Positions 3,897 through 11,693 of a stretch of 64,000 nucleotides of DNA are shown here, piece by piece. Each line of letters starts with the position of its first letter. Position 1 is the first letter of the stretch. The stretch spans positions 186,001 through 250,000 of the forward strand of contig JAJCXN010000054.1 of assembly GCA_029263415.1 (NCBI GenBank), given 5' to 3'. The DNA is from Acidobacteriota bacterium (GTDB lineage: Bacteria; Acidobacteriota; Thermoanaerobaculia; Multivoradales; Multivoraceae). A program made the position numbers and the translations under genes. The notes under the pieces are model-generated. The model had not been told where the DNA came from and searched no databases. It saw only the letters and a program-made list of their open reading frames with translations.

Positions 3897-5015
3897 ATGA
3901 GCCTTTTTGGCGCAGGTGGAGCGCTCGTGTCGGGGCGAGTGGTCACGGCGGATCCGGAAGTCGGTGAGCGCGCCGATTTTCTGCACGTGTGCCGCCCGGA
4001 CACGACGGTGGTGTCAATCGATGAGCTGCTTGTACTGGACTCTGGTGAGCGTCTCGATGGGTTCGATATCGCCTATCGTAGTTGGGGTACACCGTCGCGA
4101 CGTGCAGTCTTGGTCTGCCATGCTCTGAGTGGCTCGGCCGACGTGGATGACTGGTGGCCAGGATTGCTCGAACCGGGTGGCCCACTGGATCCTGCTGATC
4201 GCTATGTCTTGTGTAGCAATGTGCTGGGCGGTTGCTACGGCAGTAGTGGGCCGTCTCAGCTCCATCCGGATGATGGCTTGCTTGTCGGTACGCGCTTTCC
4301 TGTCGTTTCGATCCGCGACGTGGTTCGGGCTCAGGCGCTGTGGCTGTCGGCGATCGGGGTCGAGGAGCTCGACTTAGTGATCGGCGGTTCGATGGGTGGC
4401 ATGCAAGTGCTCGAGTGGGCCGCTCTGTTTCCGGATCGAGTTAGAGCGATTGCACCTGTTGCCAGCTCCGCTCGACACTCTGCTTGGTGCATCGGAATCT
4501 CTCAAACGCAGCGAGCCGCGATCACAGCTGATCCGCGCTGGCACGCCGGCGTCTATTCAGCGGCCGACCGGCCCGCCCACGGTCTCGAGGTTGCGCGACA
4601 GATCGCGATGGTCAGCTATCGGTCCCGTGCCTCGTTCGAACAGCGATTCGGTCGTGATCGAGTGCAAGAAGGTGACTACGAGGTCGAGGACTACTTGAAC
4701 CACCATGGCCGCAGCTTGCGGGGCCGCTTCGATGCGGCAACCTACTACCGGATCACAGAGACCATGGACACGCATGATCTTGGCCGTGATCGTGGAAGTG
4801 TCGCTGACGCGTTGCGCAGCATCGAACAGCCGGCGCTGGTGGTTGGTATCGATTCGGATCTTCTCTATCCCTTGGTGGAGCAAGAAGAAATCGCTCAACA
4901 CCTCGCGGACTCGACTTTTGTACCGATCTCTTCGCCTCACGGCCACGATGGGTTCCTCATCGAGCAAAAGCCCTTGGCTAGCGCGTTGAGCGAGTTCATC
5001 AGGCTCCATCAGTAA
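3897..5015 (+). CDS. metX: Homoserine O-acyltransferase, MetX type
   Basis: A 372-residue alpha/beta-hydrolase of the MetX family, which acylates homoserine from an acyl-CoA. The early LVCHALSGSADV segment and the VLGGCYGSSGPS loop match the family. The nucleophile is S165 in GGSMGGMQ. The charge-relay residues are the Asp in VVGIDSDLLYP and the His in SPHGHDGFL. It pairs with metY upstream. Family membership does not settle acetyl versus succinyl donor use, because both activities exist among MetX proteins. The ribosome-binding site before ATG 3897 is weak. A GTG at codon 15 is a possible alternative start. Confidence 0.93.
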   Translation: MSLFGAGGALVSGRVVTADPEVGERADFLHVCRPDTTVVSIDELLVLDSGERLDGFDIAYRSWGTPSRRAVLVCHALSGSADVDDWWPGLLEPGGPLDPADRYVLCSNVLGGCYGSSGPSQLHPDDGLLVGTRFPVVSIRDVVRAQALWLSAIGVEELDLVIGGSMGGMQVLEWAALFPDRVRAIAPVASSARHSAWCIGISQTQRAAITADPRWHAGVYSAADRPAHGLEVARQIAMVSYRSRASFEQRFGRDRVQEGDYEVEDYLNHHGRSLRGRFDAATYYRITETMDTHDLGRDRGSVADALRSIEQPALVVGIDSDLLYPLVEQEEIAQHLADSTFVPISSPHGHDGFLIEQKPLASALSEFIRLHQ

Positions 5016-5124
5016 AGGGTGCGCAAGAAGTGAACTGGCACCAGACGCTTTGAGCGGCACCAGGCTGGAAGATTCCCGCTGTATGATTGTTCGTTCGAAT
5101 TCCCCGTCGATTTGAGGTGAACTG

Positions 5125-6165
5125 TTGAGTAAAGCAAAGAACTCGCTCCTGAGCATGAGACTCGCTGCGGTTGCCGTGCTGGCTACCTCGCTAGCGCTCT
5201 GGGCGCAACCTGGGTCGCAACCTAACCCAGATGAGCCACTGCCAAGTGGTGTCGAACAGCTTCTCCCACGCGGCCAGATCGCGGCGGTGTTTGAACCGAC
5301 CTTTGTCGCTGCCGAAGACGCCGAGATCAGCGACGACGCCTGGGTACTAGGCGTCGAGTTCGACGGTGTTGCTCGGGCCTACAGTCTCAACCTGCTCAAT
5401 CGTCATGAAGTGGTCAACGATCGCATTGGCGAGAAATCCTTCGCGGCGGTTTGGTGACCGCTTGCGAACACGGCCGTGGTCTACGGCCGACAAGTTGGTG
5501 GCAAGGAACTGAATTTCGAGGCGTCGGGGGCTTTGCTCAAAGCGTCTTTGGTGATGCGCGATCGGGAGACCGACAGTTGGTGGTCGATCATGACCTCAGA
5601 CGCAATCGGGGGCGACCTAGAGGGCGCGGATCTTGAGGAGATCGGAGGATCGGTGAAAGCGATGTGGGGTGATTGGAAACGCCAACACCCGAACACCACG
5701 ATCCTCTCTGTGAACGGCAAAGAGCACGAAGAGAACAACCCGTACGACAACTACTTCGCCTCAGACGATACCTTCCGTGGTTTGATAGTGGACGATCAGC
5801 GTTTGGCCGCTAAGGCGAATATCTTCGCTTTCCATCTCAACCCGAAAGGGGTGGGCAGGACGGTCGCCTTCGCTATCGAGCACGACGCCATGAGCAACGG
5901 CGTGCTGTTCAGACATCCCATGTTTGATGGCCGAGTTTTGCTTGCTTCACGAGTTGAAGGGCAGTCGTTTTATGCGTCGAGTGACATGTTCTGGGTTGAC
6001 AGCAAGCAAGCACCGCCCGTTGGCGCTAACAAGAAAATGCAGAAGGCCGCAGTGCGATCGTTGCTAGAGCTGGCTAGGGCTGGCAAGCTTGAAGCTGTTT
6101 CCGGATTCGACACATTCTGGTACAGCTGGGTTGCGGTCAACCAGGACAGCCAGTTACTTCAATAG
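5125..6165 (+). CDS. DUF3179 protein with in-frame TGA: candidate selenoprotein
   Basis: From TTG 5125 (GAGGTGA just upstream) the frame encodes an N-terminal signal peptide ending near ALWA, then DUF3179 sequence. TGA at 5455-5457 is codon 111. The same frame then continues for 235 residues to a stop at 6165, giving 346 residues with TGA decoded. Around the TGA the product reads FAAVW-TGA-PLANTAVVYGRQ. Family members have (V/T)(T/F/Y/W)CPLCNTA(I/V)(V/A)(F/Y) here, so TGA sits on the first conserved Cys. Downstream motifs (SLVMRDRETDSWW, GGDLEG) are intact. A SECIS-like hairpin follows at 5458-5498. TGA is used as a normal stop elsewhere in the window. Two readings are possible: a selenocysteine codon, which I favour, or a nonsense mutation or sequencing error that would make this a pseudogene. 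The biochemical role of DUF3179 is unknown. Confidence 0.75.
5455..5498 (+). promoter_or_regulatory. Candidate bacterial SECIS element after TGA codon 111
   Basis: TGA 5455-5457 is followed by a perfect 7-bp stem, CGGCCGT (5471-5477) with ACGGCCG (5483-5489), closing the loop GGTCT (5478-5482). A lower helix pairs CTTG (5461-5464) with CAAG (5491-5494), plus G5460-U5495 and possible C5458/C5459 pairs with G5497/G5498. The internal loop is CGAACA opposite one A. There are 20 nt between TGA and the apical loop, and its first two bases are G. This fits published bacterial SECIS constraints. GGUCU is also the apical sequence in the E. coli fdhF SECIS, which SelB recognises. SelB binding here is inference. 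Confidence 0.65.
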
Positions 6166-6223
6166 ACGCTAGTCGTTCAAACCGTGGCCTAGCGATCACT
6201 CCCAGCTTGGAAGGACCGCCCTT

Positions 6224-7081
6224 ATGCGGCTTCAAGGACGCAGACGCAGCTCGAATGTAGAAGACCGACGCGGGCGTGGCCCGAGGGTCGGCCGTGGAGC
6301 CGGTGTGGGTTGCGGTGGTTTGGTGCTGGTGGTCTTGTTTGCGCTATTGACCGGCAACGATCCCTCCGAGTTGATCAGCATGCTTGGCGGAGTAGGGGGC
6401 GGCCCAGCCGCGGGCGTGGATCAAGGGCCCGGGCCAGGGACTGATCCCAACGATGCTGGTCGAGTGTTTGTCGATCAGGTTCTTGCAGATATCGAAGATA
6501 CCTGGAACACGGAGTTCCAGCAGGATGGGCGTCGCTATCCTGAACCGACTTTGGTGCTCTTCACCGATCAAGTGTCATCTGCCTGTGGTTTCAATTCTGC
6601 GGCGGTCGGACCGTTCTACTGTCCGGCCGACTCCAAGGTCTATCTCGATCTCGGCTTCTTTGGCGAGCTGGAGCGCCGCTTTGGTGCCCCTGGTGACTTT
6701 GCTCGCGCCTATGTCATCGCGCACGAGGTTGGGCATCACGTTCAGAACGTCCTTGGTATCTCGAGTCAGGTGAGTCAACTGCAAGCAACAAGTCGCGAAG
6801 AAGAAGCCAACCAGCTATCGGTAAGACTCGAACTGCAAGCGGATTGTCTAGCGGGTGTGTGGGGTAATCAGGCTGCAAACCGCGGCCTGCTTGAGCGTGG
6901 TGATCTCGAAGAAGGTTTCCGTGCTGCTGCCGCGATTGGCGACGACACCATCCAGAAGCGATCGCGCGGCTATGTGGTGCCTGAGTCGTTCACGCACGGG
7001 TCAGCGGAGCAGCGACAACGCTGGTTCCGTGTCGGGCTCGAGAGCGGCGATTCGGACAGCTGCGACACCTTCGGTCGGTGA
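6224..7081 (+). CDS. Neutral zinc metallopeptidase, YpfJ family
   Basis: A 285-residue protein with an Arg-rich cytoplasmic N-terminus and one membrane segment (roughly residues 28-43, CGGLVLVVLFALL). A Gly-rich linker then leads to a zinc-peptidase domain with HEVGHHVQNVLG near residue 166. LQADCLAGVWGN follows and supplies the third zinc ligand region. FNSAAVGPFYCPADSKVYLDL is the other family hallmark. It is probably membrane-anchored with the domain in the periplasm. Its substrate is unknown. It follows the DUF3179 gene by 58 bp on the same strand and may be cotranscribed with it. Confidence 0.9.
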   Translation: MRLQGRRRSSNVEDRRGRGPRVGRGAGVGCGGLVLVVLFALLTGNDPSELISMLGGVGGGPAAGVDQGPGPGTDPNDAGRVFVDQVLADIEDTWNTEFQQDGRRYPEPTLVLFTDQVSSACGFNSAAVGPFYCPADSKVYLDLGFFGELERRFGAPGDFARAYVIAHEVGHHVQNVLGISSQVSQLQATSREEEANQLSVRLELQADCLAGVWGNQAANRGLLERGDLEEGFRAAAAIGDDTIQKRSRGYVVPESFTHGSAEQRQRWFRVGLESGDSDSCDTFGR

Positions 7082-8738: not shown

Positions 8739-10139
8739 CTATTGCCGCGCCGCCGACCGCTGCGCTCCATGGAGGATCTTGGCGGTTCGCACGTGGCTCG
8801 GCTCGAGCGAGTCAGTCCAAGCGATCACAAGATCATCGGCGGTGACCGCAAGGCGGGGAAATCCCGAGGCGCGAGCCTCACTCGATTGAGCTATCAAGCT
8901 GGTCGATCCGCGTTCGGTTGAACCTGGACCAACGCGGAAGTGATCGAGTAGTACTGACATGGTTCCCGGGTCCTCGGTGGAGGATACGCGTAAGGATTCG
9001 GGTGCGGCGCTGAGGTGGCTCACCCAGATGTCAGAGCCGTTGAGCACTGAACTGATCGCGACATCGACGCGGCCCGTCGTGGCCGCATCGGTTACCTGGA
9101 TTGGCGGATCGAAGCTGGCGCCAGCGTCGCGAGAGATCGAGAGTTGCACAAGCGGTCGATCATTGGCCCCGGTGAACCACGCCACTGCCACCAGGCTGCC
9201 GGATGCGGCGACCGCTGGCCCGTTGACCGGGCAGCCTTGGATCTCCCAGCCGTCGCGGTGGATGCGTTCTGGCTCGGTCCAGCCGGCCTCGGTTTGTCGG
9301 ACGATCTGGATGTCGCGAATCTCAGCGTCCGACCGGTTTCGATAGACCACCACCGGGCCGTTGCTGGTGGTCGCGGCGTCGGTTTGGCAACACTCGCACA
9401 CTCGGTCATCGAGCATCTCGCTAGCCCCTGGCGGCTCGACCGCGATGCCCGCCGTGGTGATGTCAGCGCTGGCGGCCTCGACCGTGCTCTGTGAGCGGAT
9501 GAGGGTGGTGCGTAAGGTCATCGGCCCATCGACCGCCATCTCACGGCCGTCAAGCCAGAAGGCTCGCAGCTGATCTCCATCTTGGGCAAACGAAACGAAG
9601 CCGTGCTCGGTGAGGGATTGATCGTCGTGCAATAGGCCGAGTGGGTTCCAGCCTGTTGGTCCATTCGAGGAACCCTGGCTTGTGTTGACGGAGAGGTGGG
9701 CGCCGTAGGCATAGGTGCCGAGGCCGAGCTTCGCGAGATGGTGCACAACTAGAGCTCCACTCGGGTGCTCAGCGAGCGCCGGGAAGTCCGCCCAATTGGC
9801 GAAGAAGTTGGAGCCCGCGACCACGGTCGACGCAGGTGCAAAGTCATCACCAACAAGTCGGCTGGTCCTGACTCGCCAGGTCTTGGTCTTGGCGTCCTCC
9901 CCGGCCTCTGTTGTTGCCGGGGGCTCGAGCCAGGTGAGCATTGGCCCTCGCGAGGTGGTGATCAAGTTCGGCGCGATCGCGCCCGATCCAGCCGGGTTTA
10001 CGACTGGGACCAGTTGTACAACGCCCAAGTCAACCCGTTGCGGCGCCGGCTGACAGGCAGCGAGACTGAGAACAGCCAGCACCCACCCGGAGGCGCCCAG
10101 CATTCGGGTCGAGTGTCGCAGTGATGTCGCTTGAAGCAT
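8739..10139 (-). CDS. Sialidase-like beta-propeller lipoprotein
   Basis: The frame is open to 10508, but ATG 10139 follows AGAGGA and begins a lipoprotein signal with lipobox LSLAAC, giving 466 residues. The mature part has repeated BNR/Asp-box-like blades (for example LSISRDAGASFDPPIQV) as in the sialidase superfamily. A CECCQTDA motif in the middle is characteristic of a group of exported sialidase-like proteins of unknown function. The CxCC cluster could bind a metal, which is inference. The protein is probably tethered to the outer membrane. The gene converges on the CaiB/BaiF gene with a 6-bp gap. Confidence 0.8.
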   Translation of the reverse strand: MLQATSLRHSTRMLGASGWVLAVLSLAACQPAPQRVDLGVVQLVPVVNPAGSGAIAPNLITTSRGPMLTWLEPPATTEAGEDAKTKTWRVRTSRLVGDDFAPASTVVAGSNFFANWADFPALAEHPSGALVVHHLAKLGLGTYAYGAHLSVNTSQGSSNGPTGWNPLGLLHDDQSLTEHGFVSFAQDGDQLRAFWLDGREMAVDGPMTLRTTLIRSQSTVEAASADITTAGIAVEPPGASEMLDDRVCECCQTDAATTSNGPVVVYRNRSDAEIRDIQIVRQTEAGWTEPERIHRDGWEIQGCPVNGPAVAASGSLVAVAWFTGANDRPLVQLSISRDAGASFDPPIQVTDAATTGRVDVAISSVLNGSDIWVSHLSAAPESLRVSSTEDPGTMSVLLDHFRVGPGSTERGSTSLIAQSSEARASGFPRLAVTADDLVIAWTDSLEPSHVRTAKILHGAQRSAARQ

Positions 10140-10289
10140 TGGGGATTGGGTCCTCTTAAGGTCCGTTGGATCCTTTTGGGTAGCACGCTGACCGTGGGGC
10201 TGAGAGTCCACTAGGATCAGCCTGCTTTGCGACTCTACTGCCTCTCGTTCACGGAGGTGCAACATCTCTCCCTTTCTGGACCTCAACTC

Positions 10290-11693
10290 ATGGCCTACTC
10301 CTCCGATTTCGGTGCTCCACACAAACGGCGAAGCCCACGGATCAAGTTGTTCTTGTTGCTGCTTGTTCTCGCGGTAGTTGCTGCGGCCGTTTGGCGCGTG
10401 GGACCGCCACCCGAGCTTGATTTCGAGACCAGCGTTCCTGGCATCGGTGCTGAAACCCGGATCTCGGCATCCGCGCTCGAGAGGTCGCGTGGACTCGGGG
10501 TGGTGCAACTTGTTCTACAGCAAGGAACGAATCAATGGCTGTTGGCGGAGGCGACTCATGAACCACGGCCCTTCTGGGCGTTCTGGGGTGACCGAGTGCA
10601 GCGCGTGCAGTTCGATGTAGTGGTCAAGGGGCTCGAACTGGAAGGCATCGAGGAGGGCGACGCTACCCTTGCTCTCAGTGGCAGTCGAGCTGGTACCTGG
10701 TTGAGACGGCCTGCCCCTGCGGTGCTTGAGCGGCGATTGCCGGTTCGGTTCAGACCCCCGTCGCTGGACCTTGGGCCACAAGCGGTAGTTGTCCGGCAGG
10801 GCGGTTCAGCGGTGGTGGTGTATCGGGTAGGCGACACCGCGGTGTCGAGTGGAGTTGTCGCGTCCGGCAGCGTTTTTCCTGGATACCCAGTTCCGGGGGG
10901 TGGACCCAACGATCGATTCGCCTTGTTCGCTGCCGCTTACGACAATTCGGATGAGGCTCAGCTGCGGCTGACTGCAACGGATGCTTTGGGCAACACTCAG
11001 TCGAGAGCGTTCGTTTCGACCTTCAGGACGCGGACCCTCAAGACCTCCAAGATCAACCTCAACGATCGGTTCTTAGAAAAGGTCGTGGGTGAGATCGTCT
11101 CGAGAACCGAAGGTTTAGCTCCTGGACAGAGACCATTACAGTCCTATCTCGAAATCAACGGTGATCTTCGGCAGAAGAACCGCGCTGAGTTGGTTCAGTT
11201 GTCGAGAACCAGCGCTGCAGATTTCCTGTGGACGGAGCCGTTTATCCAGCAGCCGAACAGTCAGTTGATGGACGACTTCGCAGCTCGGCGGACCTATCTT
11301 TACGAAGGACGCAGCGTCGACACGCAGGACCACTTAGGTTTCGATCTCGCCTCGGTGCGGCGGGCGCCGGTGGTTGCCTCGAACCGAGGTCGCGTGGTAC
11401 TGGCTCGGTATTTCGGCATCTACGGCAATGCCGTCGTCGTCGATCACGGCTATGGTCTCCATTCGCTTTACGCACACTTGTCATCGATCGATGTTGCGGT
11501 GGGCGATCTGGTCGAGCAGCGTCAGACGGTCGGTCGCTCCGGCGAGACTGGGCTGGCTGGGGGCGATCATTTGCACTTTGCCCTCTTGGTCGGTGGTCGA
11601 CCGGTGGACCCACTGGAGTGGTTCGATGAGCGCTGGATCAAGAGCCGGGTCTTTGACCACGCCGAGGAACTAGGGGTGGGGAACTCGGAGTAG
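10290..11693 (+). CDS. M23 family metallopeptidase (LytM domain)
   Basis: A 467-residue protein from ATG 10290. An earlier start at 10227 is possible but puts extra residues before the membrane anchor. The N-terminal RIKLFLLLLVLAVVAAAVW segment is a signal anchor. About 290 residues of unassigned extracytoplasmic sequence follow, then a C-terminal LytM domain. HLGFDLA holds the first zinc ligands and GDHLHFALLV gives the HxH motif. GYGLHSLYAHL lies between them. It probably cleaves peptidoglycan peptide crosslinks. The facing gene encodes a bactofilin, a cytoskeletal partner often found with M23 peptidases. Confidence 0.9.
   Translation: MAYSSDFGAPHKRRSPRIKLFLLLLVLAVVAAAVWRVGPPPELDFETSVPGIGAETRISASALERSRGLGVVQLVLQQGTNQWLLAEATHEPRPFWAFWGDRVQRVQFDVVVKGLELEGIEEGDATLALSGSRAGTWLRRPAPAVLERRLPVRFRPPSLDLGPQAVVVRQGGSAVVVYRVGDTAVSSGVVASGSVFPGYPVPGGGPNDRFALFAAAYDNSDEAQLRLTATDALGNTQSRAFVSTFRTRTLKTSKINLNDRFLEKVVGEIVSRTEGLAPGQRPLQSYLEINGDLRQKNRAELVQLSRTSAADFLWTEPFIQQPNSQLMDDFAARRTYLYEGRSVDTQDHLGFDLASVRRAPVVASNRGRVVLARYFGIYGNAVVVDHGYGLHSLYAHLSSIDVAVGDLVEQRQTVGRSGETGLAGGDHLHFALLVGGRPVDPLEWFDERWIKSRVFDHAEELGVGNSE

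Follow-up and report, generated by a model that had tools for sequence, protein, structure and literature searches.

A DUF3179 gene of an acidobacterial genome with a predicted selenocysteine codon and no cysteine in its product

The window, by which we mean the whole stretch of 64,000 nucleotides that was analysed, carries on its forward strand a gene of the DUF3179 family whose reading frame runs through a TGA codon. A hairpin lies a short distance downstream of this codon. The features of the locus are:

5114..5119, + strand: likely ribosome-binding site GAGGTG, inferred, 5 nt upstream of the TTG start
5125..6165, + strand: predicted Sec-DUF3179 gene, 346 residues with U111, TAG stop, TTG start inferred
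5140..5202, + strand: hydrophobic N-terminal helix, residues 6-26, a probable export signal (model helix, low pLDDT there, and sequence)
5359..5688, + strand: N-half domain, residues 79-188, modelled as a Rieske-like beta-sandwich with the Sec (window model; N-half model of a relative)
5455..5457, + strand: UGA codon, U111, in all likelihood read as selenocysteine; homologues align Cys there
5458..5470, + strand: spacer of 13 nt between the UGA and the SECIS stem
5471..5489, + strand: predicted bacterial SECIS hairpin, stem 5471-5477 / 5483-5489, loop GGUCU 5478-5482 (fold, and covariation in 134 windows)
5707..6162, + strand: C-half, residues 195-346, by hhalign a degenerate repeat of the N-half, with neither Cys nor Sec

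A single Pfam match to DUF3179 (PF11376) spans residues 51-339 (E 1.8e-54; 185.6 bits against a gathering score of 27) and covers both flanks of the TGA, while no NCBIfam model matched the protein. The coordinates agree with an earlier reading made from the letters alone (the sequence-only reading), which had seen one frame pass from 5125 to 6165 through the TGA with family sequence on both sides. It had also placed the TGA at the first Cys of a CPLC-type motif, and this holds in part: Cys is found there in homologues and in a further DUF3179 copy of the same genome, but the peptide around the TGA is AAVW-U-PLANTAVVYG, giving a UPLA and not a UPLC motif. The product has no Cys at all, leaving Sec111 as its sole thiol or selenol. 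Ordinary gene finding would probably cut genes of this kind in two.

The hairpin 3' of the TGA was found exactly as the sequence-only reading had described it, a perfect 7-bp stem with a GGTCT loop that starts 13 nt past the TGA (CGGCCGT at 5471-5477, GGTCT at 5478-5482 and ACGGCCG at 5483-5489). The loop of the E. coli fdhF SECIS is GGUCU. The window hairpin resembles the fdhF type of bacterial SECIS in being a stem-loop just past the UGA with G at loop positions 1 and 2, in its distance of 20 nt from UGA to loop and in its MFE of -13.2 kcal/mol; the family as a whole differs from that type, its commonest loop being CGUGU (83 of 134 sequences), with GGUCU as in the window in 22 of 134. Taken alone, the hairpin is modestly unusual and near chance. 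Among 20,000 synonymous resamplings that kept the peptide unchanged, 7.6% gave 7 of 7 pairs in the same register and 22% carried some SECIS-like stem of at least 7 bp, and by such resampling the MFE has a p of about 0.08. Dinucleotide shuffling gave a z of -1.84, with 7 of 200 shuffles equally good. An Rfam scan of 4800-6600 with E values up to 10 returned one chance match only, to the MS2 operator (E 7.4). What raises the hairpin above chance is that the TGA and a covarying hairpin recur together in more than 100 homologues. The hairpin also conforms to the bSECIS rules as given in the legend of Fig. 2 of PMC13188914.

The source genome (6.9 Mb, 99.2% complete) encodes all of selA, selB, selC and selD, the genes that the sequence-only reading had named for a check: a tRNA-Sec with anticodon UCA (71.1 bits to Rfam RF01852), SelB (329 bits, wing domains present), SelA (458 bits) and SelD (249 bits over two pieces). 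SelD shares a frame of 829 residues (L026:1735-4224) with a pyridine-nucleotide-disulphide oxidoreductase domain, which precedes it. Three DUF3179 genes are present in this genome. Besides that of the window, a copy on contig C38 (L002:891-2106; PF11376 E 1.8e-38) has a TGA at the window's codon, in the context AASW-U-PSEQSVVVHD, and is a short form made up of the N-half only with a CAHC tail; the copy on contig C37 has Cys at the site (VYCTLCGT). A different genetic code, in which TGA generally specifies an amino acid, would likewise leave the frame open through the TGA. Such a code is hardly credible here, since 9 of the 32 long ORFs that a mechanical listing gives for the window terminate in TGA, the Sec system is complete and TGC or TGT takes the place of TGA in other DUF3179 genes.

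DUF3179 occurs in 89 of 147 related genomes. The best 34 matches, the window's own included, contain exactly one TGA each, and the TGA stands at the window's codon in 29 of 29 relatives chosen as best matches (L030-L058). A pattern scan for W-TGA-P-L...V-V-Y with one genome per species, in which the pattern itself required the TGA, found at least 117 loci (116 distinct protein windows for the 117 listed); in 108 of these the frame past the TGA is open for 184 codons or more, in 8 it runs off the locus and in 1 it stops. The relatives, phylum and pattern-scan sets share many identical sequences and must never be summed. By the labels of the records, which may err for some MAGs, the loci (80 of the 117 are listed by name) belong to Acidobacteriota, Planctomycetota, KSB1, Calditrichota, Krumholzibacteriota, Latescibacterota, Gemmatimonadota, Chloroflexota and Desulfuromonadales, among others. 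The isolates Acanthopleuribacter pedis, which has the window's UPLAN motif, Sulfidibacter corallicola and Geothermobacter hydrogeniphilus carry a gene of the TGA type. One locus, L114 (3173-3205), shows a TAG three codons past the TGA, which probably means that the gene is broken or the assembly wrong.

For comparison of the proteins, 95 of the 117 loci were aligned with the window (96 rows, near-copies and incomplete loci left out), and all 96 rows match Pfam DUF3179. The W, U, P, L and VVY positions were fixed by the scan pattern, so that their invariance reflects the selection of rows; beyond the pattern, Glu95, Leu137, Asp146, Trp153, Gly163 and Trp184 are invariant. In each of the seven relatives compared, codon-position differences past the TGA rank second at or below first and first below third, with a third-position excess likewise before the TGA, and on this pattern the coding sequence 3' of the TGA is judged to be under purifying selection. 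With a single assembly to go by, one might suspect a pseudogene, or an error of sequencing or assembly at 5455-5457. Either is extremely improbable given the same TGA in many independent assemblies, isolates included, its presence in two paralogues of the source genome and a frame under selection.

More has to be said about the TGA as a true stop, which would yield a product of 110 residues, with or without re-initiation at an in-frame GTG start at 5476. The use of TGA as terminator of long ORFs in the window is compatible with this, as is the presence of the GTG itself. Nevertheless, the frame downstream is under purifying selection, a putative SECIS follows, and the GTG is not conserved: its third base, which is loop base 1, is G in 6 of 50 UPLAN sequences. 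The codons at the TGA column of homologues include TGA, TGC and TGT, and neither TAA nor TAG appeared there in the codon tally. The search for TGA aligned with Cys codons, another proposal of the sequence-only reading, finds at least 117 loci with TGA, and TGC or TGT in the Cys homologues. Termination at this codon is very improbable.

The hairpin was compared across 134 distinct Sec windows beginning U-P; these sequences are related, and the counts that follow are not independent events. In the 7-bp register 92.4% of cells are paired, versus 26-45% when the register is slid by 1-3 nt, and double changes occur at 7 of 7 stem pairs (69 cells) against 3-5 pairs (7-20 cells) in the slid registers. 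None of 500 shuffles matched the pairing observed. Of the 134 loops, 133 have G as base 2 and 132 have T as base 3. The Sec windows form 6.47 of 7 pairs where 4.99 would be expected from amino acids and codon usage, whereas 26 Cys homologues show no excess (3.23 observed versus 3.37 expected); for these expectations the window's codon usage was applied to all sequences. When any register is allowed, a SECIS-like stem of at least 7 bp is found in 85 of 134 Sec windows versus 3 of 26 Cys windows. A separate subgroup (L219, L220, L222, L224-L226 and L233; e.g. Y-U-TLCHTGLVW) uses another register, with the loop 14-16 nt past the UGA. Related Cys forms, L215-L217 (Y-C-TLCHTGLVW), occur in G233, G294 and G301, none of which gave a SelB match at E 1e-60; G224, a genome of the same family and the source of their Sec sister L219, gave one. 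By eye, L215-L217 retain some of the hairpin where the SECIS would lie, as if a SECIS were decaying there.

With SelB called present at E 1e-60, the sample of the phylum has it in 39 of 43 TGA genomes versus 217 of 353 others (Fisher p 4.5e-5), while in the sample of relatives a hand tally gave 37 of 42 versus 93 of 105 and no association. TGA genomes were counted from the matches listed, so that there are at least 43 and at least 42 of them, and the others may include more. The TGA-bearing drafts without a SelB match number 4 of 43 and 5 of 42, respectively, and the four of the phylum sample are 63-93% complete. Counter to a strict rule, the Cys forms L202 (G312) and L201 (G327) come from genomes with SelB. 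A tree was built from 116 Sec rows, 25 Cys rows and 3 others. The distribution of Sec on it takes 7 changes to explain, of which well-supported branches force no fewer than 6; none of 500 shuffles was as low as 7, and such counts are silent on gain versus loss. The window falls in a well-supported clade (100/99) of 39 rows, nearly all UPLAN, comprising 38 Sec forms and one Cys form on a very long branch. In one supported clade (L209, L210 and L211) Ser or Asp replaces the first Cys or Sec; these proteins probably have another function or a lost one.

The machinery, the second TGA paralogue in the genome, the TGA homologues and the covariation of the hairpin make it nearly certain that UGA 5455-5457 is read as selenocysteine, as the sequence-only reading had proposed from a single gene. 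The hairpin that starts 13 nt past the UGA would direct SelB and Sec-tRNA(UCA) to decode this codon as Sec, and readthrough would yield the DUF3179 protein of 346 residues. The best explanation of the whole is a selenoprotein gene with SECIS-guided Sec that encodes an exported one-Sec oxidoreductase, to which we assign a probability of roughly 0.85.

The sequence-only reading knew of no report of Sec in DUF3179, and here it was mistaken. The selenoprotein tables of PMC9312934 (2022) and PMC13188914 (2026) list a DUF3179 selenoprotein with the motif UxxC/T, which the latter grades as predicted with high confidence and for which the former cites Zhang and Gladyshev 2007, a study of the Olavius algarvensis symbiont. 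The catalogued protein and that of the window share PF11376 and a Sec at the first motif position. They differ in that the window has Ala (UPLA) where the motif has Cys or Thr, and has no Cys anywhere. Sec in DUF3179 is therefore not new, and the UxxA form is outside the motif listed in those tables. A literature search for 'selenoprotein' with 'UxxA' returned no paper, although Zhang and Gladyshev 2007, which lay outside this search, may show UxxA; passages of two further selenoprotein papers, PMC2398784 and PMC12013277, do not name DUF3179.

Among the 117 loci listed, UxxA is the commonest form, with residue 3 after the Sec being A in 74, C in 29, T in 11, S in 2 (one of them the broken L114) and L in 1. 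Across differing Sec members this residue is A, C, T, S, L, E, V or D, and even the two Sec paralogues of the source genome disagree, with A in the window and E on C38. With the partner Cys absent from 88 of the 117 loci listed, a CxxC-type redox pair cannot be the general mechanism. Cys is absent altogether from 37 of the 61 UxxA rows, counting the window, and from 9 of the 10 UxxT rows; all rows except the window were trimmed to at most 95 residues before the Sec. An internal selenenylsulphide is consequently impossible in the window protein, which has no other Cys, and likewise in many members. Across the Sec forms of DUF3179, it is the selenium residue itself that is kept. The tables of PMC13188914 also list selenoproteins that have no UxxC or CxxU pair, such as the GPX-like and OsmC-like UxxT proteins. 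These resemble the window protein in having a Sec without a CxxC-type partner and differ from it in belonging to other Pfam families, and any likeness would be one of mechanism. A protein given one table line in each of the two reviews is here a common selenoprotein in several phyla, and with isolates that carry the gene its function is directly testable.

The AlphaFold model of the window protein has a pLDDT of 93.2. In it, Sec111 closes strand 104-111, at the hairpin leading to strand 116-121. Aligned with each other by hhalign (probability 99.4, E 9.2e-22), the two halves of the sequence are to be read as one duplicated domain. A VIA-align search with the window model ranked a Rieske fold first (3c0d, Z 7.0, 98 aligned, 3.7 A), and 14 of its 17 rows are proteins that we take, in part by title, to be of the Rieske fold. 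The N-half model of a relative (L078; pLDDT 96.8) matched 2qpz with Z 8.2 (92 aligned of 103 residues, 3.1 A), and its best 50 rows are all, on the same assumption, of that fold. The modelled Sec half superposes on Rieske-fold ferredoxins and NirD, although a Z near 8 can reflect a common arrangement and other folds may lie outside the VIA-align lists. Foldseek gave no match at E 0.001 or better with either model; with the L078 N-half its top match was a CheA complex, followed by Rieske proteins in places 2-5, and all of these had E of at least 0.19. Comparison by hhalign with 28 Rieske domains from related genomes gave a probability of 0.3 and no sequence-profile support, and a PDB sequence search for relatives gave one match (E 0.46). 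The window protein also differs from Rieske proteins in lacking both the CxH...CxxH cluster motif and any Cys. The Rieske likeness of the Sec half is a fold lead from models.

Residues 42-142 of the L078 N-half model align to 2qpz 2-96, and the Sec is model residue 73; only these aligned ranges are available for placing it. Going by the usual ligand positions of Rieske ferredoxins, the Sec apparently lies off the cluster site. It falls about 27-33 residues into the ferredoxin, ahead of the first ligand loop, and we therefore abandoned a placement of UPLC at the CPWH ligand loop of Rieske proteins. One may tentatively picture DUF3179 as a Rieske fold that was duplicated, lost its cluster and turned into a widespread exported one-Sec enzyme. 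Its Sec would sit on a beta-hairpin at some distance from where the cluster had been, often as the sole thiol or selenol, with the neighbouring Cys dispensable and the reductant coming from outside; we hold this picture with more doubt than confidence.

From its modelled N-terminal helix, the window protein is probably exported. In our estimate there is about an even chance that it functions outside the cytoplasm as a one-Sec oxidoreductase which an external thiol resets. The selenol of Sec111 would attack an oxidised substrate outside the cytoplasm, and an external thiol or a thioredoxin-like protein, not a neighbouring Cys, would then reset it. The main functional rival is that the Sec serves chiefly as a ligand of a metal or metalloid, or binds a cofactor, without redox cycling. 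The UxxA and UxxT forms with no Cys at +3, and often none at all, would suit such a site, as would the conservation of His94 (86 of 96 rows) and of Glu95 and Asp146 (96 of 96), and several Sec families in the catalogue tables of PMC13188914 are related to mercury or metals. A redoxin/TlpA-like gene beside the short paralogue group points instead to thiol chemistry, and we consider the ligand role unlikely, if worth keeping in mind.

The neighbourhood of the window-type gene adds little to the case for an oxidoreductase. The gene lies beside an alpha/beta hydrolase, which we take to be homoserine-acetyltransferase-like, and a zinc peptidase, and no conserved neighbourhood emerged among 428 ORFs (at least 110 codons, within 3 kb) at 116 loci. 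The largest shared neighbour cluster covers 11 of the 116 loci, is sigma-factor-like by eye and gives no redox support. Elsewhere in the window, an ORF of 589 codons (8739-10508) has no Pfam match at E 1e-5. In the short paralogue group, three loci extend far enough to show the next gene (L002, L231 and L238), and in all three it is redoxin/TlpA-like. An UnbV/ASPIC gene, identified by Pfam, precedes the L002 copy, and frames that look similar by eye precede L231, L235 and L238.
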